A DNA stretch of 22,536 bases from a virus: IMG/VR virus record IMGVR_UViG_3300030419_006173, positions 1 through 22,536 of that record. One strand, 5' to 3'. Both the position numbers and the translations under genes were made by a program. The notes under the pieces were generated by a model. The model worked only from the letters and a program-made list of their open reading frames with translations. It was not told the origin of the DNA and made no database searches. Positions 855-21,048 of the stretch are shown here, piece by piece; the first letter of the stretch is position 1; each line of letters begins with the position of its first letter.

Positions 855-862
855 TATTTATA
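855..862 (-). promoter_or_regulatory. T4-type late promoter for the Usg-like gene
   Basis: Perfect TATAAATA on the minus strand, one base after the T-run of the gp23 terminator. With T4 spacing (octamer at -13 to -6) the predicted start of transcription is base 849, the A of the Usg-like ATG. Confidence 0.75.
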
Positions 863-2307: not shown

Positions 2308-2315
2308 TATTTATG
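2308..2315 (-). promoter_or_regulatory. Late-promoter-like octamer for gp23
   Basis: CATAAATA on the minus strand, one mismatch from TATAAATA. It overlaps the stop codon of gp22, about 28 bases before the gp23 start. Predicted start of transcription is near 2302, giving a short leader that includes the AGGAG ribosome-binding site. Confidence 0.6.
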
Positions 2316-3429
2316 ATCTAAGGGTTCTCGAAATAGCCTGAGCATAAGCAGCCATCGATGGGTCGGAACGTGTAACAGGTCCTTCGTCATCAACGTCAAC
2401 TGGTTCACTTTCGTCAACTGCAGTGTCCGTAGCGGCTGGTTTATTGAAATACGTTTCAAGAATTACGTCCATCTTTTGTCCGTAATCTTCAATGTTGTCA
2501 TATTCAAGGCCTTCAACCAAATCGTTAAATTCATCTTTTTGCTTTAATGTAAGTCCTGCAGACTTCTCATGAAAAGCGATGACTCCGCTTTGGTCTTTCA
2601 TTGCACTAGAAAGTGCAATCTTTTCGTCGATCTCTTTATTGAGTTGCTCTTCGAGCTCATCAATCTTGGCTTCCATTTCACCAAAGTGATCGGCTTTGTC
2701 TTCTGGAATTTCGATGTGATTTTCAACAAACATTTGCTGTAGACCAGTAAGGAAATTCTCTGCCATCTCTACTTTCAAAGCAGACTCGATAGCAATTTCG
2801 TTTTCTTCCATCCAGGTATCAGCAACGTAGTTGAGATAATCATCAATCTTCTTTTCGTAATCTTCTTCGAGCTGTTCTTTAGCTTCAGCCAACTGCCGAT
2901 CAAACTCTTCTCTAAGAGCTTCTTCAACAATTGTTGCTTTGATGTTAAGTGCAGCTTCAAAAATTGTAGCTGCTTTATCAAAAAACTCTTCATTGAGAGC
3001 TTCTTGGTCGCCGAACAATTCTTCGAGATCTTCTTTAACTTTAATGTTAGCCAGCGTATGCAGCTTTACTTTTCCACCAGGGTTATCTTTGGCTTTGATG
3101 GAAGATTTATTACCTGCATCAGACATGAGACCTTTATAAGCCTTACCGGCTTGGCCAGGTGTCATCCCTGCCATTGCATCGACGACCTGAGCAATTACTC
3201 CTGTCTTACCGAGCTTCTGCATTGGCATAGCATTACCTTTATCAGCCTTGCGACGAGACGAGCCAGTTTCAATAGGATCGGGCACACTAGACGCCTCACC
3301 GGAAGCCTGGAACTCTACAAGCTCTTCTTCTGTATCCTCGTCGTCAGTGGCTTCAAGAAGATCTTCATCTTCTACTTCGGCTTCTTGAAGATCTTCATCT
3401 TCAATCTGCTCTAGTTCTTCTTTTGCCAT
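2311..3429 (-). CDS. 22: Prohead scaffolding core protein gp22
   Basis: A 372-aa scaffold protein that fills the prohead core and is destroyed by the gp21 protease during maturation. It has a very acidic N-terminal region (roughly residues 1-45, rich in E and D), a low-complexity linker, and a long Glu/Lys-rich helical centre (about residues 125-265) of coiled-coil character, as in T4 gp22 (269 aa). The position between gp21 and gp23 is the canonical one. I chose ATG 3429 (MAKEELEQ) because AAGGAG ends 6 nt before it. A preceding in-frame ATG (3432) and a TTG (3453) lie too close to or upstream of that site. Several L/I-x-E triplets are available for gp21 cleavage. Confidence 0.88.
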   Translation of the reverse strand: MAKEELEQIEDEDLQEAEVEDEDLLEATDDEDTEEELVEFQASGEASSVPDPIETGSSRRKADKGNAMPMQKLGKTGVIAQVVDAMAGMTPGQAGKAYKGLMSDAGNKSSIKAKDNPGGKVKLHTLANIKVKEDLEELFGDQEALNEEFFDKAATIFEAALNIKATIVEEALREEFDRQLAEAKEQLEEDYEKKIDDYLNYVADTWMEENEIAIESALKVEMAENFLTGLQQMFVENHIEIPEDKADHFGEMEAKIDELEEQLNKEIDEKIALSSAMKDQSGVIAFHEKSAGLTLKQKDEFNDLVEGLEYDNIEDYGQKMDVILETYFNKPAATDTAVDESEPVDVDDEGPVTRSDPSMAAYAQAISRTLRS

Positions 3430-3461
3430 CATTGACTCCTTTGAATTAATCAATCTTAATT

Positions 3462-3469
3462 TATTTATA
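3462..3469 (-). promoter_or_regulatory. T4-type late promoter for gp22
   Basis: Perfect TATAAATA on the minus strand in the short gap between gp21 and gp22, about 33 bases before the gp22 start. Predicted start of transcription is near 3456, giving a leader that carries the AAGGAG site. Confidence 0.8.
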
Positions 3470-3481
3470 ATAATTGGACTT

Positions 3482-4135
3482 TTACAAAGACTTTAAGAAC
3501 TTATCGAAAAGTTTTAAAGCATTTTCCTGTAATTTCTTAACGTCCTTGTCACCTAGCTCCTTGGTCTGCTCAATAACTTGTTGAGTAAAATGACCAGTAG
3601 CGGCATCATAAACCCAATCAACACCTTCCATCACTCCATTAACAAAGGCTTGAGGTGCAGAAGGATCTGCAACAATATCTGCTGCAGTCGAAAGCATAAA
3701 GTCGTCTTGAACAACTTGACAATCTGCTTTCTGCCTTAGAGTTCCCATACCTCGACTCGAAACACCTAGTTGTGCTCCTTCATCGATTAAGTTTTTAACA
3801 ATGTTACCGTATGGGGTATCTAATACTTTTGCTTTACCAATCCAGTTATTACCTTCTTGGTGCAATCCTTTAATCATATGGGAGACTCTTTCAAGATTAA
3901 TTGTCGGTCCATTAGGATGACCGAGCTCACCATATGCTCTATTTTTTGAGATGTATTCGTTGTTATATCGTGCAACTTCTTTAGCCATAGTTGAAGCTGG
4001 ATACATACGACCATTTCGATTCTTTAATTCACTCTGTAAGAATACACCTTCAATGAAGTGACTCTTCTGTTTTGTTTCTTCGTCGATCTGGACTCTTACG
4101 TCAACATGCTCGACAAGTTCAGTTACGAGTTTCAT
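3482..4135 (-). CDS. 21: Prohead maturation protease gp21
   Basis: A 217-aa serine protease of the T4 gp21 type (T4 is 212 aa), which degrades the scaffold and trims the capsid proteins inside the prohead. Catalytic candidates are His73 in GELGHP and Ser126/Ser127 in LGVSSRG, the two signature motifs of this herpesvirus-like protease fold. The sequence NRNGRMYP near residues 39-46 is also typical. The ATG at 4135 overlaps the stop of the upstream gene (TAATG). A longer frame from a TTG at 4147 exists but is less likely. It is a member of the prohead operon and precedes the gp22 promoter. Confidence 0.93.
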   Translation of the reverse strand: MKLVTELVEHVDVRVQIDEETKQKSHFIEGVFLQSELKNRNGRMYPASTMAKEVARYNNEYISKNRAYGELGHPNGPTINLERVSHMIKGLHQEGNNWIGKAKVLDTPYGNIVKNLIDEGAQLGVSSRGMGTLRQKADCQVVQDDFMLSTAADIVADPSAPQAFVNGVMEGVDWVYDAATGHFTQQVIEQTKELGDKDVKKLQENALKLFDKFLKSL

Positions 4136-4536: not shown

Positions 4537-5138
4537 TACTGAACACTCCTCACCCAATCAATTAATGTTGTATGTGTTTGTCTGTTTTCTGTAAACAACG
4601 CTTCAAATTGGTCTTGATGTTCTGGCTCTAAATCTTCAAACACTTCTTCAATTATAGCCATTGTTTCGTCATCAATTCCAATTTCAGATCCATCGTCGAG
4701 TTCAAGAATGGTAATGAATTCTTCAAATTCTTCCTCAACTTCTTCACTGGCCATTTTATTTGCTGTTGCATACATTACTGACTCAGCATCTTTACCATAT
4801 CGGCTTACAAAGTCAGCTTTATTTTTCTTCATACCTTTTACAATGTCTTCACGCTTCTCTTGATCAACACCTTCGTATGCTGCTTCTGCAGACTCTTGAT
4901 CATTGTCAGCTAGTCTTTTCTTTCTTGATTGTTTTGCACCAGAGAAGATGTCGTCATTGCTGCCGCTCTTTTGCGTTACTGGATAATCAGTCTTTTGAAC
5001 AACGTGCTTGTCCTTAAAGGCTTTTTCTCCAGGAGCTGCAGGATTGATATATGTGTCCATCTTACCTTGGCCTTGACCAGGAGTGGGGACAATCTCAATC
5101 TTAGTCCTCTCTGTCAGTTCCTTCAGTCTCTTCGGCAT
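4536..5138 (-). CDS. 68: Prohead core protein, gp68-like
   Basis: A 200-aa charged protein in the gp68 position, longer than T4 gp68 (141 aa). The central KKNKADFVSRYGKDAESVMY segment, continuing ATANKMA (around residues 120-145), is a motif widespread in phage head-cluster proteins. The C-terminal part is strongly acidic (EEVEEEFEEF, LELDDGSEIGIDD). T4 gp68 is an internal core component that is cleaved and lost from the head. I start at ATG 5138 (MPKRLKEL) because GAGGAG lies 8 nt upstream. The longer frame to 5234 would run antiparallel to that signal and deep into the upstream gene. It overlaps the gp67-like gene by 38 nt. Confidence 0.75.
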   Translation of the reverse strand: MPKRLKELTERTKIEIVPTPGQGQGKMDTYINPAAPGEKAFKDKHVVQKTDYPVTQKSGSNDDIFSGAKQSRKKRLADNDQESAEAAYEGVDQEKREDIVKGMKKNKADFVSRYGKDAESVMYATANKMASEEVEEEFEEFITILELDDGSEIGIDDETMAIIEEVFEDLEPEHQDQFEALFTENRQTHTTLIDWVRSVQ

Positions 5139-5388
5139 CTGAATGCTCCTCGTCTTCTTGTTCTGTTTCGGCTTCATCGCCTTGTTCTTCAGGACCCAAT
5201 TCCATTGCTGGTGTATCTGTTGGATCCTCTCCACCTAACTTAGCAGCTACTGCCTGCCGTATCTGATCGACTCTATCATTTACTCTGTCAACCATTACGC
5301 CAGAAAAATAGTCTGCAAACTTACCTGGTTCGCCTTTAATGGCAGTATCTACCATGTCTTTTACTGTATATTCCTCGGGCTCAGCCAT
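5101..5388 (-). CDS. 67: Prohead core protein, gp67-like
   Basis: A 95-aa protein directly after the portal gene, where T4 has gp67 (80 aa), a small acidic core protein. The first half is helical (VKDMVDTAIKGEPGKFADYF, then DRVNDRVDQIRQAVAAKL). The last third is almost entirely acidic (EEQGDEAETEQEDEEH and beyond). A small size, acid tail and position fit gp67; sequence identity with T4 is not obvious. The start at 5388 has GGAG about 8 nt upstream and a perfect late promoter 15 bases upstream. Confidence 0.72.
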   Translation of the reverse strand: MAEPEEYTVKDMVDTAIKGEPGKFADYFSGVMVDRVNDRVDQIRQAVAAKLGGEDPTDTPAMELGPEEQGDEAETEQEDEEHSDAEETEGTDRED

Positions 5389-5402: not shown

Positions 5403-5410
5403 TATTTATA
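5403..5410 (-). promoter_or_regulatory. T4-type late promoter for the prohead operon
   Basis: Perfect TATAAATA on the minus strand between the portal stop and the gp67-like start. With T4 spacing, transcription starts near 5397, placing the GGAG ribosome-binding site at the extreme 5' end of the mRNA. Confidence 0.8.
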
Positions 5411-7591: not shown

Positions 7592-9802
7592 TTAGAATTT
7601 GCCAATGACTTCAGAGAACTCAACATTCGTTCGGACAGCAACGAAGTTCAACTGAATAAAGTTAATTGACCGAGCTGGCTTGATGTAAATGTCACCAATA
7701 AACTCGTTTCTGTCAATAACTTCTCCTGTATTATTCGTTTCGTCACAAATGACTGTAAAGTCAAAAATACCACGTCGACCTTGAACATCCCGAAGGAAAG
7801 GCTCGACCATATTTCTGAATTGAGCTCTCGTGAATTCGTCGTTGAATTCGAACAACAAGTACTTTGCAGCACGTGAGATTGCTTTCTCAAGAACAATGAA
7901 CAATCTACGAACATTGATTCTATCAAATGCACTCGGTCTTGCTAGCAATGTCTTGTCACCAAAGAGAATAGTTCCTTCACCTGGGAACGTAACAATAGGA
8001 TTAATGCCCTTTTTGTAAAGTAAGTCACGATCGGCTTTATCCGGATTGTATGGATTCTTGATAACATTTTTAATGATACCACGATTGAATCCACCAGGTG
8101 AGTACCAAGGCTCTCTTGTATTGTCTGTTCTTACAATAAGACCAGCAACGTCACCATTATATGGAACATATCTGTATACGTCATTATATTTGTCGTATTG
8201 ATATTTGTATCCACCATCCAACACACCATACGAAGATGATGTTAAGGCATCTCTGTGATCAATTGTATTAGCAGATTCTTTATTGAAGTTGTTAATAATG
8301 TCTGCTTTTTCTGGCGAGGCAATAACAATGCAGTCTTTTCTTGGCTCAGCAATGTTGTCAATCAGATAGTTTGTAAGTTGATGACCATGCGTGCCACCTT
8401 TTGACTTACCTGTAAGAACAAGAGAGATATCAATCTCTTCTGCATTCTTAAACAAATCATAACCATCTGTTATTTTAGCGATTGCAATGTTTGTATCACC
8501 CCAATCTTCTGATCCAGCAGTCGTTACATGAACAGTACCAGTGTTAACAATACCACCATCACGACCACACTTAAATGATCTTGTGAATGGTACGGTGTTT
8601 GTAACGACTGTGTTTGTCATGTTAATGGCTGTGTTGGTATATGTTGCCGTGCTGTTTTGTGTTTCACCAGCCGGGCGTATAACCTTACCACCATTCAATA
8701 ACCAACGACTTTGATTATCAATAACATTGTAGTAGTAAATTGATTCACCAGATTCGTTTTTAGCATCTGTAGCTCTTGAAAGATTGCTAAAGGATTCTAG
8801 TATTTGTCCTCTCACACCAGTGATTGCACCATCTTCGTCTTGGACAACAAGGTGAAGCTCATCAAATGCATCCGTATTGTTAGCAACGTTGTTGCACCAA
8901 AGAGATGTACCGGGCTCAGCTTCAAAGTTGCCGTAGAATTCCCACTTACGAGTAATTGAATCAGACTGAAGGTTTACACCAAAATCAGTCGACAGTGTGT
9001 ATTTTGATTCAAAACTAATATTTGCAGTTGCAGTGAACTGTGTATCAGCATCGCTGTTAGTAAGAGCACCACTTGTGGTTGTTGAACCAATAGCAGAAAC
9101 ACGCTTCTCAGTAAATCCAATTGAGGTATTACCTAAACGAACAAGGTCTCCAACTGCAAAGCTAGAAGCAACGTTTTGACATGTGTTCTGAGCAAGCAAG
9201 TACTCAGCAACTGTCACGTTTCCTGTACTCGCAAAAGACGCTTTTGTGTCTTTAGCTGTAATAACAAGCTCTGTATTACCAACAGTAATGTTTGCTGTAC
9301 AACTGTCTCCACCAGACATTGTGTTAGAAACTGTGCTTTCCCATGCTGAATTACTATCACAGACAGAAACTTTAAGCGAGTTACCTAGCGATCCAAAATA
9401 TCGAGCTAGGAACGCTGCATCTGCAGGAACTGTAATCTCGTTGTCGTAGTGTTCTTTGTTTTTAATCAAAAGACTGTGTGATGTATTACCAGAGTTAGCT
9501 GTGGTTGCGGATGCCTGAAGAACAGTTGCATTCCGGCCATTAGCTGACGCTGCACGCACAACAAATAGTTTATTGCCGTACGCTAAAAAGTTTGCGGCGG
9601 TGAAAAATGATTCGAAATTGGTACCGTCTGGCTTTCCAAACACATCAGCAAGCTCTCGTTCTGTTGATGTCATTGTTGCCACTTCAGCTGGTCCCCACCT
9701 GAAGTTACCACAAAAAGCACCTTCCGTTGTTGAAACGGCTGGCACTATACCAGTTAAGTCAATTTCTGTTACATTTACACCAGGACTGACTTGAAATCCC
9801 AT
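7592..9802 (-). CDS. 18: Tail sheath protein gp18
   Basis: A 736-aa contractile sheath subunit (T4 gp18 is 659 aa). The N-terminus, GFQVSPGVNVTEIDLTGIVP, is characteristic of sheath proteins. The C-terminal domain (RRLFIVLEKAISRAAKYLLF, then FEFNDEFTRAQFRNMVEPFL) is the conserved part that polymerises around the tube. The middle, about residues 130-420, is Ser/Thr/Asn-rich and beta-rich, corresponding to the variable surface domains. The ATG at 9802 has AAGGAG about 9 nt upstream. It has its own perfect late promoter and a leader of about 40 nt that begins with a hairpin. Confidence 0.96.
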   Translation of the reverse strand: MGFQVSPGVNVTEIDLTGIVPAVSTTEGAFCGNFRWGPAEVATMTSTERELADVFGKPDGTNFESFFTAANFLAYGNKLFVVRAASANGRNATVLQASATTANSGNTSHSLLIKNKEHYDNEITVPADAAFLARYFGSLGNSLKVSVCDSNSAWESTVSNTMSGGDSCTANITVGNTELVITAKDTKASFASTGNVTVAEYLLAQNTCQNVASSFAVGDLVRLGNTSIGFTEKRVSAIGSTTTSGALTNSDADTQFTATANISFESKYTLSTDFGVNLQSDSITRKWEFYGNFEAEPGTSLWCNNVANNTDAFDELHLVVQDEDGAITGVRGQILESFSNLSRATDAKNESGESIYYYNVIDNQSRWLLNGGKVIRPAGETQNSTATYTNTAINMTNTVVTNTVPFTRSFKCGRDGGIVNTGTVHVTTAGSEDWGDTNIAIAKITDGYDLFKNAEEIDISLVLTGKSKGGTHGHQLTNYLIDNIAEPRKDCIVIASPEKADIINNFNKESANTIDHRDALTSSSYGVLDGGYKYQYDKYNDVYRYVPYNGDVAGLIVRTDNTREPWYSPGGFNRGIIKNVIKNPYNPDKADRDLLYKKGINPIVTFPGEGTILFGDKTLLARPSAFDRINVRRLFIVLEKAISRAAKYLLFEFNDEFTRAQFRNMVEPFLRDVQGRRGIFDFTVICDETNNTGEVIDRNEFIGDIYIKPARSINFIQLNFVAVRTNVEFSEVIGKF

Positions 9803-9848: not shown

Positions 9849-9856
9849 TATTTATA
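9849..9856 (-). promoter_or_regulatory. T4-type late promoter for gp18
   Basis: Perfect TATAAATA on the minus strand between the gp17 stop and gp18, with predicted transcription start at 9843 and a leader of about 40 nt before the gp18 ATG. Confidence 0.82.
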
Positions 9857-15255: not shown

Positions 15256-15999
15256 TTACCCCGTCATATCGTGTACTGGTAAAGAATAAGAACTTAACAT
15301 CTCTTCTTCTAATTTATTTTTAGCTTCTAAACCTTGACTCAGTATTGTATCACCATTAAACTGTACACCACCAGGCAGTTGCATACCAACAAACTTAGTA
15401 AGGTTTCTACCCCACTGTATTTGAATTAGAGCTGTGGCATACTCAGCTAGCCAACGATCTCCATACACATCTGTATATGTTTCAGGATCAACTTTGTTAT
15501 ACACTTCTGCAATTAAATAGTCGCCGGTGTTAAACTTATCCCAATCCATATCAACATACAAACGATTTATATGTCTGTTGAATTTTAAAGGTTGCTTACC
15601 AATAAGAATCTCTTCAATGAATCTAATGTTCATGAAGTTCATATAGAAAGGAACAAGGTCATATCTTGACAAATCATACAAGTCATTCAAGGCTATTTGA
15701 TATCGAATATTGAAGAGATTATTTGTACTTGTAGCATCTCCAATGTCGAAAATATCAATAATCCCAATAGTATCAGTATTGCTAATCGAAATGTATCCAT
15801 TGGTTTTATCGTCTGCTGTTACTTGGTGTTTAAGAAATGTTCTTTGACTGCCATCAAAATGATAATCGTGATAATAATTTAAAGCTGTATCAATAGCATC
15901 ACCAACTTGATCATCGTCAACATTAATCTCAATGACAGGCTTACCTAATCTTCTCAGGCAAAACTCTTTAAATGTTTCTCTTGAATCTGGGACTGCCAT
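15256..15999 (-). CDS. 13: Neck protein gp13
   Basis: A 247-aa neck or head-completion protein (T4 gp13 is 309 aa). It has the typical start (RETFKEFCLRRLGKPVIEIN, then VDDDQVGDAIDTALNYYHDYH) and a C-terminal domain ending QGLEAKNKLEEEMLSSYSLP, as in marine T4-like phages. It binds the portal after DNA filling, together with gp14. The ATG shares bases with the stop of the 47-aa ORF upstream (TAATG). Confidence 0.94.
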   Translation of the reverse strand: MAVPDSRETFKEFCLRRLGKPVIEINVDDDQVGDAIDTALNYYHDYHFDGSQRTFLKHQVTADDKTNGYISISNTDTIGIIDIFDIGDATSTNNLFNIRYQIALNDLYDLSRYDLVPFYMNFMNIRFIEEILIGKQPLKFNRHINRLYVDMDWDKFNTGDYLIAEVYNKVDPETYTDVYGDRWLAEYATALIQIQWGRNLTKFVGMQLPGGVQFNGDTILSQGLEAKNKLEEEMLSSYSLPVHDMTG

Positions 16000-16142
16000 T
16001 ACATTCCTACCCTTAGCTTGATTGGTGTTGACTGAGCTGTGTTAGCATATGGCTTTGTATTTGCAGATTGTGGAGTAAACTTTTGTTCAGTCCTCAACAC
16101 CAACTTTACATTCTTGCCATTCTCTAACTTCTTAACCGTCAT
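15999..16142 (-). CDS. Small basic protein of 47 aa upstream of gp13
   Basis: The frame begins MTVKKLENGKNVKLVLRTEQ and ends IKLRVGM. Its ATG overlaps the stop of the gene before it (ATGA) and its stop overlaps the gp13 start (TAATG), so it is tightly locked into the operon and very probably translated. It is basic (nine Lys, two Arg) with no recognised domain. Function unknown; a minor virion or assembly protein is possible. Confidence 0.72.
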   Translation of the reverse strand: MTVKKLENGKNVKLVLRTEQKFTPQSANTKPYANTAQSTPIKLRVGM

Positions 16143-16483
16143 GATGTACTCGCATTAACATGAACAAAGCCTTCAACCAATTTAGTAGTTGTACTTCCTG
16201 TAGTAACCTTTACGTCATATAAATATCTTTTTGGCGCTTGTAAATAACCAGTTTGTGTATCAGTTAAATTTAAAATGACCGAACCATTCGAATACCCAGT
16301 TGCAGTAAATTCAAGATTTGATGTACTGGTTGAATTGATCTGAGAATTTGTATGTGTTGCCTTTATTGTACTAGAGATTGAGTATGCAGCCATATTAATA
16401 GATGCATCACTAGCATTAACAACATCAAGTGTGGTTGTAAAATCAGATCCTTTATCTAGGAATAAATCTGCTTTTTCGGCCAT
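16139..16483 (-). CDS. Small beta-rich structural protein (114 aa)
   Basis: The sequence begins MAEKADLFLDKGSDFTTTLD and ends KLVEGFVHVNASTS; the segment LQAPKRYLYDVKVTTGSTTT precedes the end. This is an immunoglobulin-like or BppU-N-like beta pattern found in small structural proteins of T4-like cyanophages, as I recall. It is probably a virion protein. It is the first gene after the divergent promoter, with AGGAG 8 nt before its ATG, and its stop overlaps the next start. Confidence 0.78.
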   Translation of the reverse strand: MAEKADLFLDKGSDFTTTLDVVNASDASINMAAYSISSTIKATHTNSQINSTSTSNLEFTATGYSNGSVILNLTDTQTGYLQAPKRYLYDVKVTTGSTTTKLVEGFVHVNASTS

Positions 16484-16503
16484 CGAGCGCTCCTAATTAA
16501 CAG

Positions 16504-16511
16504 TATAAATA
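16504..16511 (+). promoter_or_regulatory. T4-type late promoter for the plus-strand operon
   Basis: Perfect TATAAATA on the plus strand in the only divergent intergenic gap. Predicted transcription start is 16517, giving a 25-nt leader before the first operon gene at 16542. Confidence 0.8.
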
Positions 16512-16519
16512 TATTTATA
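16512..16519 (-). promoter_or_regulatory. T4-type late promoter for the neck/packaging operon
   Basis: Perfect TATAAATA on the minus strand, adjacent to the plus-strand octamer. Predicted transcription start is 16506, giving a short leader with AGGAG before the gene starting at 16483. Confidence 0.8.
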
Positions 16520-16541
16520 CTATCACAAAAGTGGATACATA

Positions 16542-17105
16542 ATGTCGAAGATAAGTGAATTAAGATTACATGCCAGGAATAGGAGACTACCCTGTTGTGT
16601 AAAATTAAACGACCTAACTCCTGAATTACTTGCACATAACTTATTTATTTATGAGGATCTCAGCAGTGATCCTTCAAATATATCAACTGAGACTACATAT
16701 TCAGATAGAGTAGAAAATGCTGTTGCAGGTATAAGTTTAGGTAAGCAAGTACGAGATTTAGGTAAGTTTTACAAACAAATACACACAGATGAAATATCCT
16801 TGTTGTGTAAATATGATCCATATAATACTAGATTTGCCATGCTTGAACCAGATCATAGCATTAGTTATCATATGGATCCTCCAAACATATATAATTTAAT
16901 TTGTCCTTTAACTCATGATGTAATACTTGAGTTTAAAGATAAAAGTGAATCTTTATTTTATGTGTGTGAAATTGGAGAAGTGTGGTTTATTAATCCAAGC
17001 TATTTGCATGCTTCACATCATGAAGCAGAAGAGACACGAATAGCAATGCTAGCCAATTTTGATTACAGTGAGAAAGTTTATGAGTCCCTTACCAGGCTAT
17101 TATGA
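16542..17105 (+). CDS. Aspartyl/asparaginyl-hydroxylase-like Fe(II)/2OG oxygenase
   Basis: A 187-aa protein whose C-terminal half resembles a double-stranded beta-helix oxygenase. It has an HxD pair (His110, Asp112 in SYHMDPPN), a distal His156 in INPSYLHASHH and an Arg ten residues later (Arg166) in a position that could bind 2-oxoglutarate. Spacing and the GEVWFINPSYLH segment recall the aspartyl/asparaginyl beta-hydroxylase family (PF05118). The substrate is unknown; possible targets are a protein side chain or a sugar. It is the first gene of the plus-strand operon and has a weak ribosome-binding site (GTGGA). Its end overlaps the radical SAM gene by 26 nt. Confidence 0.65.
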   Translation: MSKISELRLHARNRRLPCCVKLNDLTPELLAHNLFIYEDLSSDPSNISTETTYSDRVENAVAGISLGKQVRDLGKFYKQIHTDEISLLCKYDPYNTRFAMLEPDHSISYHMDPPNIYNLICPLTHDVILEFKDKSESLFYVCEIGEVWFINPSYLHASHHEAEETRIAMLANFDYSEKVYESLTRLL

Positions 17106-18009
17106 ATTAGAACCAGAGGATAATCATTTTACAGATGTTACTGCTGATGTAACTCATCGGTGTAATATGACATGTACAAACTGTTATATTCCTAACAGAG
17201 ATGTTCCAGACATGGATATTAATAAATTGATTGAAGCAATTAGTCGTTTTCCTAAAAGGACAATGATTCGTATAATGGGTGCTGAACCTACAATGCGTAT
17301 GGACCTTCCAGACATTATTGTTAAAATAAGAGCAACCGGTCATCGTTGTACATTGCTAACAAACGGATTAAAGTTGGCAAGTATAAGATACACAAGGATT
17401 CTTAGAGAAGCTAAACTTTCTCATGTTTACCTAAGCCTCAATGGGGTGGATAATGATGATTGGTATGAACACATCGATGAGATGAGATGTGCGAAACAAA
17501 AAGTTATGGCGCTTGAAAATATTAAAGATGCAAGGTTTATTATTGACACAGGTACAATTATTTGTAAAGGCATCAACGATGATGCTCCATCGAGACTTAT
17601 GAACCTATTCAAACAAAAAGGTATTAACAATGCTTTGATGAGGTTCAAAAACGTAGGACAACATGGAAGATACTTGTTGCCAAGTTCAGATAATTATAGT
17701 ATGGATGGATTAATTCAATTGTGTGCTGATCATTATAACTTGTCTGTTGATTATATTAACTCGTGGAGAGATAAACCAATGTATGGCAATCACGTTGAAC
17801 CAGACACATTTATTTTTCCATTAGATCCTAAGTCAGAAGGCAAACTATTTCATAGAAGTGGTTATTGGGTAAAGATTGCTGATTGGGATAGTCATGGCGA
17901 TACTAGATTATATCCATTCATGGAACAAACAAGAAGAGGAAGAATCACTGAGGACTTTAAAGTTGCTCCTTTACCAGCTCACATCGTTGCAAATGAGGGT
18001 GGTTACTAA
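17080..18009 (+). CDS. Radical SAM enzyme
   Basis: A 309-aa radical SAM protein. Cys28, Cys32 and Cys35 form the CxxxCxxC motif (RCNMTCTNCY) that binds the [4Fe-4S] cluster. GAEPT (67-71) replaces the usual GGEP SAM-binding motif, and LLTNG (92-96) and a SLNG strand follow as in MoaA-like enzymes. Only scattered cysteines remain in the C-terminal half, so no SPASM domain with auxiliary clusters is apparent. It ends with RGRITEDFKVAPLPAHI. I start at ATG 17080; an in-frame TTG at 17059 is less likely. The stop overlaps the next start (TAATG). The substrate is unknown; neighbours suggest a sugar or a peptide. Confidence 0.9.
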   Translation: MSPLPGYYELEPEDNHFTDVTADVTHRCNMTCTNCYIPNRDVPDMDINKLIEAISRFPKRTMIRIMGAEPTMRMDLPDIIVKIRATGHRCTLLTNGLKLASIRYTRILREAKLSHVYLSLNGVDNDDWYEHIDEMRCAKQKVMALENIKDARFIIDTGTIICKGINDDAPSRLMNLFKQKGINNALMRFKNVGQHGRYLLPSSDNYSMDGLIQLCADHYNLSVDYINSWRDKPMYGNHVEPDTFIFPLDPKSEGKLFHRSGYWVKIADWDSHGDTRLYPFMEQTRRGRITEDFKVAPLPAHIVANEGGY

Positions 18010-18410
18010 TGGAGATACCTGAATACTTTGAAAAAGGAATTGACCTAGATCTTAATCCTATAAGATTATTGTATAATGAAAGACGATACAAATATTATCA
18101 CACCATTACATACGTTGACAAATACCAGGCATACTTAACACCAGATCATTTTAAGGCATCTGGTAGATTACCATTCAATTATAATCAGAGATTGAAAATG
18201 TTTGTGGTTGGTAAAGCATTTAAAGCAGCAAAAAATCATGGTGATAATACAATGTTTACCTTTTCGACAATTGAAGATCATCATACAGTAATTGATTGGA
18301 TTTGCAGCAAGTACTGGGTACCATTATCATTATTAGATGCTAAACCATTTGAACAAGTTGATGAATACTTAACAATTACGAGACGTTGGATTGATGACAC
18401 AGCCGATTAA
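18009..18410 (+). CDS. Unknown 133-aa protein after the radical SAM gene
   Basis: The protein begins MEIPEYFEKGIDLDLNPIRL. It is rich in aromatic residues (many Tyr, Phe and Trp), with a helical basic centre (RLKMFVVGKAFKAAKNHG) and DHHTVIDWICSKYWVPLSLL towards the end. No family is recognised. Start and stop overlap both neighbours, so it is cotranslated with the radical SAM enzyme and the first glycosyltransferase and may act as a partner protein. Confidence 0.78.
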   Translation: MEIPEYFEKGIDLDLNPIRLLYNERRYKYYHTITYVDKYQAYLTPDHFKASGRLPFNYNQRLKMFVVGKAFKAAKNHGDNTMFTFSTIEDHHTVIDWICSKYWVPLSLLDAKPFEQVDEYLTITRRWIDDTAD

Positions 18411-19212
18411 TATTTACTTAGTAAAAACAACTCATATAAAAACCCCAACACAATCTCAATATGATCCTAGTGAGTTGTATACAGATGAGCACGTTTACGA
18501 AATAAAGAAACAACTTGATACATATTTTACACTTCCGTATAAATTTAATCTTCTAACTAATGATACTGTTATAGGCATACCAGATATTAATTTTCATTAT
18601 ATTGGCAAAGAAGATTTGTGGGGATGGTGGAATAAAATGCTTTTGTTCAGAAAAGATATATCTGGTCCAGGATTAAATATATACCTTGATCTTGATACAA
18701 CAATCCAACGAAATATTGATATGCTTGTTGATTATGCTGTGCAAGATAAACTAACGATGTTATATTGCTATTGGAAACCAATTGATTGGGAGAAGATGGC
18801 CTATCCTCAATCTGGATATGATCCTACATTCAGATATGCAACTCTAATTAATTCATCCATTATGATGTGGTATGGGCAAGATTTAGAATATATTACAGAC
18901 GACTTTATGATTGATTGTGAAAGACATATGTTTCAGTTTAGAGGTAATGATGAATATATGTATCGATATCATAAAGATATAATTAATTGCTTGCCTCGTG
19001 GATGGGTATACTCTTGGTTTTTTGGTGCAGAAGAAGGATCAGAGTTTTTTCCAAAAGATAAAGACATGTTCAAGAAGAGAAATCAATACTATTTTAGATT
19101 ACTTAATGGCGAAGGTAAGCGAATGTCAGAAATGGAAGCAACAAGGCAGCCAGGACATGAAGCAAAGAAGATGATACGACAAGTAAAAGGAACAAGTTAT
19201 GGGTCTTTATGA
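18394..19212 (+). CDS. GT-A-type glycosyltransferase (first of three)
   Basis: A 272-aa protein with the signature of a nucleotide-sugar transferase: WGWWNKMLLF (76-85), then a hydrophobic strand ending in a DxD-type motif (YLDLDT, Asp99-Leu-Asp101) that would bind Mn2+ and the sugar nucleotide. A later GNDEYMYRY and GWVYSWFFG match the other two copies. The overall type resembles GT8 or capsular glycosyltransferases. The C-terminal 50 residues are basic and extra compared with its paralogs. The start at ATG 18394 gives a 17-nt overlap with the upstream gene. The sugar and acceptor are unknown. Confidence 0.75.
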   Translation: MTQPINIYLVKTTHIKTPTQSQYDPSELYTDEHVYEIKKQLDTYFTLPYKFNLLTNDTVIGIPDINFHYIGKEDLWGWWNKMLLFRKDISGPGLNIYLDLDTTIQRNIDMLVDYAVQDKLTMLYCYWKPIDWEKMAYPQSGYDPTFRYATLINSSIMMWYGQDLEYITDDFMIDCERHMFQFRGNDEYMYRYHKDIINCLPRGWVYSWFFGAEEGSEFFPKDKDMFKKRNQYYFRLLNGEGKRMSEMEATRQPGHEAKKMIRQVKGTSYGSL

Positions 19213-19378
19213 CATGCCAGCAATGGCAGACAAACAAACACGTGATGACATATTAATGCATAATGTTCGAGAACTACAAGAGCAACTAACCAATGCAAAC
19301 ATTAGGATTAAAGAGTTGACCGAACAGTTGCAAGCGTGTCATAAAATGATGGATGCTTATGCACTTGATGACAATTAA
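19199..19378 (+). CDS. Small coiled-coil protein (59 aa)
   Basis: The ATG at 19199 lies inside the end of the first glycosyltransferase. The predicted protein is MGLYDMPAMADKQTRDD, then a heptad-patterned helix (LMHNVRELQEQL, IRIKELTEQLQ) and an acidic end DDN. The Leu/Ile spacing supports a coiled coil of about 30 residues. An alternative start is the ATG at 19214. It overlaps both flanking glycosyltransferase genes, which argues for real translation; it could be an oligomerisation or scaffold partner for them. Function unknown. Confidence 0.68.
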   Translation: MGLYDMPAMADKQTRDDILMHNVRELQEQLTNANIRIKELTEQLQACHKMMDAYALDDN

Positions 19379-20108
19379 ATGGGGAACTAAGTTTCCTCCT
19401 GAATATCCTAATCTAATTCATAGAATGGCTAAGAAGTGGATGCCATGTGAATTTGAATCTGTTTGTATGACAGATGATGGTACAGGTTTAGATCCTGACA
19501 TTAGAATTGTTGAAACTACTGAGAAGTGGTTGTGGGATGATATTATAAACAATGACAAGTGGTTCTTTTGGGATGGAATTAAGATGTCATTGTTTGCACC
19601 ACAGCTATGTGGTATTGAAGGTAAAATACTATTCTCTGACCTTGATAATCTTTTCCATGGTCCAATGGATAGAATAGTTGATACACCTACTCCAGCAATC
19701 ATTGAATGTAATTGGATGCCTCCATGGCAAGTTGGTATGCATGGTGGTAACTATTTTCTAACAATGCTATTCAATGCAAGTTTAATTTATATCGACAACA
19801 CGCAACCAATTACAAATGAAATATGGGAACATTTTACAACAAATTACAAAAAGATAAAAGGATCGTTGTATAGTACAGATGCATACCTATGGAGAGTATG
19901 GCGTCATAAAATGAACACATATCCTAAACAAACTGTATATTCATTTAACAGAGGCGGAGATTATCCAGACAATTTTAGTTTAAGTCATGAAGCAAAATAT
20001 AAGTATAGACCAGAATATTCAGCTTGTATCTTTATGGAAGACACAGAACCAGATCCACTTGATATAAAAGAAGGGTGGGTTGCAGATATATGGAAGTCAT
20101 ATTTATGA
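19368..20108 (+). CDS. GT-A-type glycosyltransferase (second of three)
   Basis: A 246-aa paralog of the other two. It starts IKWGTKFPPEYPNLIHRMAK, matching the third copy's VGEAYGPEYVNEMFKRV. FFWDGIKMSLF precedes the strand that ends in the DxD-type motif SDLDN (Asp91, Asp93). C-terminal motifs are STDAYLWRVW, VYSFNRGGDYPDN and a YSACIFMEDTEPD tail. I start at ATG 19368; two earlier in-frame ATGs (19353, 19359) lie within the coiled-coil gene and lack a clear ribosome-binding site. Its TGA overlaps the ATG of the MIP18-family gene. Confidence 0.75.
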   Translation: MTIKWGTKFPPEYPNLIHRMAKKWMPCEFESVCMTDDGTGLDPDIRIVETTEKWLWDDIINNDKWFFWDGIKMSLFAPQLCGIEGKILFSDLDNLFHGPMDRIVDTPTPAIIECNWMPPWQVGMHGGNYFLTMLFNASLIYIDNTQPITNEIWEHFTTNYKKIKGSLYSTDAYLWRVWRHKMNTYPKQTVYSFNRGGDYPDNFSLSHEAKYKYRPEYSACIFMEDTEPDPLDIKEGWVADIWKSYL

Positions 20109-20407
20109 ATATTGAGAAAATTATAGATCAACTAAGAGAAGTGTATGATCCGGAAATGGATAGTGTCAATGTATATGATCTAGGTTTAATTTACAACATT
20201 AAGATAGACGAGGAGAATCGTTGGGTTGAAATAACACATACTTTAACGAGTGCATTCTGTCCGTTTGCAGATGAAATAGTTGCTAGTATCAGAGAAGCAG
20301 GAATGGTGCCAGGGGTTGAGCACGTAGAGGTTATTACTGTATTTGATCCACCATTTAGTATGGAGATGGTACCAGAAGAGACAAGAATGATGATGGGTTG
20401 GTTTTAA
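20105..20407 (+). CDS. MIP18-family (DUF59/SufT-like) Fe-S assembly protein
   Basis: A 100-aa protein with the full MIP18-family (PF01883) pattern: EVYDPEMDSVNVYDLGLIYN near residues 12-31, a THTLTSAFCPFADEI segment with the conserved Cys52, and DPPFSMEMVPEETRMMMG at the end, matching the family's WDPPW-xMSEEAR-LG. Relatives (SufT, MIP18/FAM96, PaaD) help deliver Fe-S clusters to target proteins. The natural client here would be the radical SAM enzyme three genes upstream. Start at ATG 20105 with GGAAG 7 nt upstream. It is placed between the second and third glycosyltransferase and overlaps both by 1-4 nt. Confidence 0.9.
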   Translation: MNIEKIIDQLREVYDPEMDSVNVYDLGLIYNIKIDEENRWVEITHTLTSAFCPFADEIVASIREAGMVPGVEHVEVITVFDPPFSMEMVPEETRMMMGWF

Positions 20408-21048
20408 TGGATTTTGTTTGTCTGAAGGTTGGTGAAGCCTATGGTCCTGAATATGTAAACGAAATGTTCAAACGTGTTGACAACTTAATGCCTGTTGGAG
20501 ATTTTATATGTTATACGGACGATCCATTAAATTTAAACGGCAACATAACAGTTAGAGGAATTACGCCTTTATACAATGATAGAATGTGGTGGAATAAGGT
20601 GATGCTTTTAAATCCAGCACATGAGCATAATGCATTATATTTGGATCTTGATACATATATGCATAAAAGTATACACGGTTTAAACCTTAAAGGACAAATA
20701 TTAAGAACAGCATGGTTTAGTGATGATATGGCTATGAAAGTTCATTACTGTAACATTAATTCATCAGTAATGAGATTGTTTGATAATAACTTTGAAAAAC
20801 AGTATCGTGATTGGTATGATAACAAAGAAAAGCTATATAAATCTTTTTATGGATTAGACTCATGGTTTTATAGAAGACATAATCTTGACTTCTTTGATCC
20901 AGGAATAGTATATTCTTATAAGTTTGGTTCTCAATTTCCAAATGATGTTGAACAAAATAAACTTCGCAGTGATCATGCTATATGTGTATTTGATGATTGT
21001 GAAAACAGATATGATATATTGAAGGAGCTGTGGAATGGATCATCCTAG
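20407..21048 (+). CDS. GT-A-type glycosyltransferase (third of three)
   Basis: A 213-aa protein, the most compact copy. It reads MDFVCLKVGEAYGPEYVNEM at the start, FICYTDDP near residue 35, MWWNKVMLL at 60-68 and ALYLDLDTY at 76-84 with DxD-type Asp80/Asp82. GLDSWFYRRH, GIVYSYKFGSQFPND and an SDHAICVFDDC tail correspond to segments in the second copy. The start overlaps the previous stop (TAATG). The set of conserved stretches suggests that all three copies descend from one gene and differ in donor or acceptor. Confidence 0.78.
   Translation: MDFVCLKVGEAYGPEYVNEMFKRVDNLMPVGDFICYTDDPLNLNGNITVRGITPLYNDRMWWNKVMLLNPAHEHNALYLDLDTYMHKSIHGLNLKGQILRTAWFSDDMAMKVHYCNINSSVMRLFDNNFEKQYRDWYDNKEKLYKSFYGLDSWFYRRHNLDFFDPGIVYSYKFGSQFPNDVEQNKLRSDHAICVFDDCENRYDILKELWNGSS

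Follow-up and report, generated by a model that had tools for sequence, protein, structure and literature searches.

Gene blocks on either side of the gap

The window, that is, the whole stretch of DNA that was analysed, is a virus record of 22,536 bases in which two gene blocks diverge from a short intergenic gap. On the minus-strand side of this gap stands a phrog_1084 gene, followed by T4-type neck, tail and terminase genes. The plus-strand side holds a hydroxylase-like gene, a radical SAM gene, an Fe-S assembly gene and other putative modification genes. The genes to which we refer below are the following.

15256-15999, minus strand: neck protein resembling gp13 (head-tail adaptor Ad2, phrog_211), encoded next in the virion operon
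16139-16483, minus strand: phrog_1084 gene of unknown function, first of the virion-side operon
16542-17105, plus strand: Asp/Arg hydroxylase-like gene, first of the plus operon (match just under the Pfam cut-off)
17059-18009, plus strand: radical SAM protein, plus operon (PF04055, E 6.2e-16)
20075-20407, plus strand: Fe-S assembly protein, plus operon (PF01883)

The protein of the phrog_1084 gene matches an LtfC-like beta-sandwich domain in Pfam, though below threshold. Three further plus-operon proteins (18391-19212, 19353-20108 and 20398-21048), for which Pfam gave no convincing match, contain LDLDT or SDLDN stretches that we take to be reminiscent of DxD glycosyltransferases. A search for sigma-70 promoters in the plus operon and its surroundings gave 42 matches, with 35.2 expected, and thus no signal.

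The 58-bp gap between the two operons harbors AGTATAAATATATTTATACT, which is palindromic without mismatch over 20 bp; no other perfect palindrome in the window reaches 16 bp. Within this site, two perfect copies of the octamer TATAAATA face each other and abut.

16502-16521, no strand: perfect palindrome AGTATAAATATATTTATACT, putative core of a two-way late promoter (from sequence)
16504-16511, plus strand: late octamer TATAAATA directed towards the plus operon, 11.3 bits, predicted start near 16517
16512-16519, minus strand (read from 16519 to 16512): late octamer TATAAATA directed towards the virion operon, retained in all 10 distinct orthologous junctions, with a start predicted near 16506

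In the late position matrix described below, each octamer reaches 11.3 bits, and at the level of sequence the two form symmetric -10 elements. They have no base in common, hence the two directions do not share one -10 element. The original prediction described this locus as a palindrome of 18 bp, made up of two perfect octamers abutting in opposite orientation, between a virion operon and a modification operon. The palindrome exists and is 20 bp long, the octamers lie as described, and the operon layout is roughly right, with virion genes on the minus side and the radical SAM and Fe-S genes on the plus side.

The octamer as a probable late promoter

On sequence evidence, the phages of this group use TATAAATA as their T4-type late promoter. 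It occurs 7 times in the window, compared with 2.29 expected, and none of 100 shuffles contained as many. Besides the facing pair there are five copies, of which four are located a short way upstream of virion-strand genes, on the minus strand, and the fifth within the phrog_1084 gene.

855-862, minus strand: one-way late promoter (putative) before gene 613-849
3462-3469, minus strand: one-way late promoter (putative) before gene 2311-3453
5403-5410, minus strand: one-way late promoter (putative) before gene 5101-5388
9849-9856, minus strand: one-way late promoter (putative) before gene 7592-9802

The same orientation prevails in gp23 relatives, which were found via the major capsid protein. 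Within 80 bases before genes, TATAAATA is sense rather than antisense by 27 to 0 at 148 gene starts, and by 94 to 3 at 562 gene starts of a second gp23-relative set. The four variants summed as NCTAAATA give 31 sense and 1 antisense in gp23 relatives of 66-75%. A position matrix derived from 732 upstream regions is near-invariant from -11 to -6, with mostly A and sometimes C at -12. When the same 732 regions that trained the matrix are scored with it, best sites of at least 8 bits are sense in 179 cases and antisense in 8; two 14-base rows of the matrix analysis that were out of register (labels L204 and L213) are disregarded. Genes were called with a simple longest-ORF script, with a looser overlap limit in the later counts, and in the radical-SAM set a GCTAAATA row appears antisense where gene calling missed the hydroxylase gene. 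With this matrix, we found no other plus-strand late site of at least 7.5 bits ahead of the gene starts of the plus operon.

A homologue of the late sigma factor gp55 (phrog_234, E 9.7e-66) is encoded by G001, a 128-kb relative that has this junction. This makes one of nine records with a gp55-type sigma, the other eight being shorter and the window record measuring 22.5 kb. A search of G001 for the gp45 sliding clamp (PF02916) returned no match, and the controls likewise gave none.

Conservation at the junction

The orthologous junction was recovered at 18 loci, representing 10 distinct sequences. Most loci were found through their proteins, and L506, L551 and L588 via a variant pattern. The core TAAATATATTTA is present without exception in the protein-found junctions and unchanged in all 10 distinct sequences. 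On the virion-directed side it is always preceded by TA, completing a full TATAAATA in each of the ten, and the offset of +8 between the octamers is likewise retained throughout. The octamer facing it is more variable. It reads TATAAATA in three distinct junctions (the window, L202 and the L213 group), GCTAAATA in six and ACTAAATA in one, differing at its first two positions and keeping those from -11 to -6. In the late matrix, GCTAAATA reaches 8.7 bits compared with 11.3 bits for TATAAATA, and ACTAAATA, found in L731, scores under the 7.5-bit listing cut-off. The radical SAM protein of L213 is 72% identical to that of the window; L202 is hardly an independent case, as its radical SAM protein is 98% identical.

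The first gene opposite the virion side changes from hydroxylase-like (window) to radical SAM (L002) to a small protein (L731), with the core remaining constant. In L002, a hydroxylase-like gene is present but away from the junction, and in L731 neither a hydroxylase-like nor a radical SAM gene adjoins it.

The outer arms of the palindrome are not preserved in relatives, and its perfect 16-mer is absent from 7 of the 10 distinct junctions. Judged from these junctions, the conserved element is the pair of facing putative promoters rather than the palindrome as such. The original prediction had asked whether relatives keep the palindrome and had named a divergent gap devoid of it as evidence to the contrary. 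As far as the core is concerned, the expectation is borne out in 10 of 10 junctions; as far as the perfect 16-mer is concerned, the contrary case occurs in seven, and the promoter pair survives it.

Facing motifs and gene orientation

If a second late motif serves the opposite strand, it should depend on the orientation of the neighboring gene. In the gp13 and gp23 sets taken together, 9 of 29 divergent gaps contain an opposite-directed late motif, versus 8 of 484 codirectional gaps (Fisher p 2.9e-8). With inclusion of the radical-SAM set, which was picked because it contains relatives of this junction, these numbers become 41 of 88 and 11 of 581. A comparable picture emerges upstream of phrog_1084 genes, where 23 of 80 loci were omitted as duplicate, too short or lacking a called neighbor. 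With a codirectional neighbor, none of 52 distinct regions has an opposite motif; with a divergent neighbor, a clear one is present in 3 of 5. The count is three and not four because the doubtful motif of L731 overlaps the start codon of the neighbor. The remaining locus, L765, has the same virion gene and a divergent neighbor but no facing motif. The proposal of two facing late promoters serving divergent operons is thus well supported, both by the way the motif tracks gene direction and by the core found in 10 of 10 junctions.

Late motifs point both ways in 33 of the 88 distinct divergent gaps of T4-like and radical-SAM loci, a count that is inflated by relatives. The offset is +8 in 11 of these; the others adopt +6, +9, -4, -6, -11 to -13, +17, +19 and a few wider values. 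In L221-L225 and in L037 (at about 3510-3535), three or four interleaved late octamers occupy a single divergent gap on alternating strands, for instance TATTTATATAAATATATTTATATAAATA in L037.

Scans across all viruses were set aside as evidence of function. Among the matches listed, the exact palindrome is divergent in 34 of 71 intergenic sites, compared with 9 of 41 for a control palindrome of the same dinucleotides (p 0.009) and 12 of 38 for a palindrome broken on one side (p 0.11). The excess over the latter control is weak, and these scans carry little weight because all kinds of viruses are mixed in them. A complete scan for the GCTAAATA variant gave 105 stretches with 22 intergenic sites, 6 of them divergent; it brings no independent support, as the five compact divergent sites are this junction family.

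Proposed working of the site

Taken together, the site is probably a bidirectional late promoter of the T4 type in compact form, and most likely represents a tightly packed T4-late version of the bidirectional promoter already known. The T4 late octamer occupies positions -13 to -6 (PMC1524935), which places the predicted starts at 16506 and 16517, 11 bp apart and in agreement with the positions originally predicted; both sets of values are predictions only. Polymerase carrying a phage late sigma of the gp55 type would, when bound at the minus octamer, initiate near 16506 and read the virion operon and, when bound at the plus octamer, initiate near 16517 and read the plus operon. Since the octamers abut and each predicted start falls within the other octamer, a single DNA copy would be occupied by only one such complex at once. 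We infer the starts, the use of both directions and the mutual exclusion, the last of these from geometry and polymerase size.

Regulation of output by competition between the two directions is an unproven proposal. We give appreciable weight, though short of even, to the alternative that both promoters work and exclusion is immaterial, with many copies of late DNA, rare firing and a layout that merely saves space. In 5 of 5 sigma-70 bidirectional promoters tested, the basal level of transcription did not suffice for polymerases to compete, and competition arose only upon activation (PMC12825309). The varied spacings of divergent late pairs, both face to face and back to back, would also be expected if spacing is uncritical. 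However, clamp-activated T4 late promoters open far faster than basal ones (PMC2988020), and rapid activated opening is the regime in which activated sigma-70 pairs did compete (PMC12825309). The constancy of the +8 spacing in all ten distinct orthologous junctions likewise points away from indifferent spacing.

The sliding clamp of T4 activates late promoters with fixed polarity, and a break on the other strand reverses the direction that is activated (PMC2988020). Given this polarity, a symmetric late promoter might act as a switch whose direction is dictated by replication: the strand with breaks or primer junctions, and hence the passage of the fork, would pick the operon without a repressor. 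We regard such a switch as unlikely.

We also consider it unlikely that the virion-directed octamer works alone and that its mirrored half is an A+T-rich downstream stretch kept for easy melting. T4 late promoters do show a preponderance of A+T downstream of the TATA box (PMC2988020), and it is the virion-directed octamer that is perfect in all ten distinct junctions, with variation confined to the first two positions of the facing one. On the other hand, none of the one-way late promoters elsewhere in the window is followed by TATTTA, and the six bases kept in the facing octamer coincide exactly with the near-invariant part of the late matrix, from -11 to -6. The scarcity of the facing motif where the neighbor is not divergent (8 of 484 codirectional gaps and 0 of 52 phrog_1084 upstream regions) and the lack of another plus-strand late site of at least 7.5 bits before a gene start of the plus operon further argue against this reading.

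An operator for a dimeric DNA-binding protein would suit the perfect 20-bp dyad, yet we consider it very improbable. The two octamers already account for the symmetry, relatives lose the outer arms and keep positions -11 to -6, and TAAATATATTTA occurs in exactly one copy in each of nine records of relatives (421,933 bases, for which about 0.16 copies would be expected). Chance symmetry of A+T-rich DNA can practically be dismissed: when the window was simulated 100 times with a Markov model, some perfect 20-bp palindrome did arise in 3 cases, but the exact 16-mer has an expectation of 5e-5 per window, and the lack of any change in the core across all 10 distinct junctions contradicts chance.

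As the symmetric site has no sequence preference for either direction, it would offer a clean test of how clamp polarity and polymerase exclusion apportion late transcription. Two-way promoters have recently become appreciated in bacteria, and the patterns described here suggest compact late forms of them in T4-type phages including T4, for which the enzymology is already known.

Relation to known promoter systems

With the T4-type late promoters served by gp55, gp33 and gp45, the site has in common the position of TATAAATA immediately upstream of virion genes, the dispensable -35 element and the gp55 homologue in the longest relative. It differs from an ordinary promoter of this type in combining two perfect opposed octamers in one 20-bp site; its starts are predicted. 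Aeh1 late promoters generally use CTAAATA (PMC1524935). In most relatives the octamer on the facing side is GCTAAATA, which includes this motif with its C at -12, whereas the main form in the phage group of the window is TATAAATA.

In bacterial bidirectional promoters, the two divergent starts are separated by 7 to 25 bp and the -10 sequences are near-symmetric, with polymerase bound in a single orientation at a time (PMC12825309, PMC10268837). The 11 bp predicted for the window falls within this range. In contrast to those promoters, which use sigma-70 and share one box, the window site would depend on a gp55-type phage sigma with a box of 8 bp and on activation by a sliding clamp, and it has two abutting boxes.

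To place the pair among cultured phages, ten records were screened for facing 7-mers with up to 13 bases and back-to-back 7-mers with up to 18 bases between them. Facing pairs occur in 2 of the 10 and back-to-back pairs in 2 of the 10, with no close pair of either kind in 7. A reversed control pattern gave similarly small counts in T4, RB49 and Mosig. All six pair sites lie in divergent gene gaps, namely 4/53, inh/segE and 26/51 in T4, 4/53 and inh/uvsW in RB49, and, in the pelagiphage Mosig, the gap that separates an Asp_Arg_Hydrox gene from a nitroreductase gene. The T4 and RB49 pairs, recognised here by pattern, resemble the window in having late octamers on both strands of a divergent gap, in their case of 47 to 70 bp, and the 4/53 and inh pairs are also arranged face to face. 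Their offsets are 14 to 19 bases with predicted starts 0 to 5 bp apart, whereas the window pair has an offset of 8 and predicted starts 11 bp apart. Unlike in the window, the octamers of T4 26/51 are back to back and overlapping. For T4, the predicted divergent starts are separated by 4 bp at 4/53, by 5 bp at inh/segE and by 23 bp at 26/51, where a second pair gives 32 bp.

In the open-licence part of the PubMed Central literature, we came across no description of T4 late promoters that are bidirectional or arranged face to face; most T4 promoter mapping is in subscription papers, outside that scope. Late-promoter prediction was reported as unsuccessful in a survey of pelagimyophages (PMC7029224). 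In Mosig (L503, MT647606 60955-60989), the two-way late motif at 60971 consists of overlapping octamers and lies beside the Asp_Arg_Hydrox gene.
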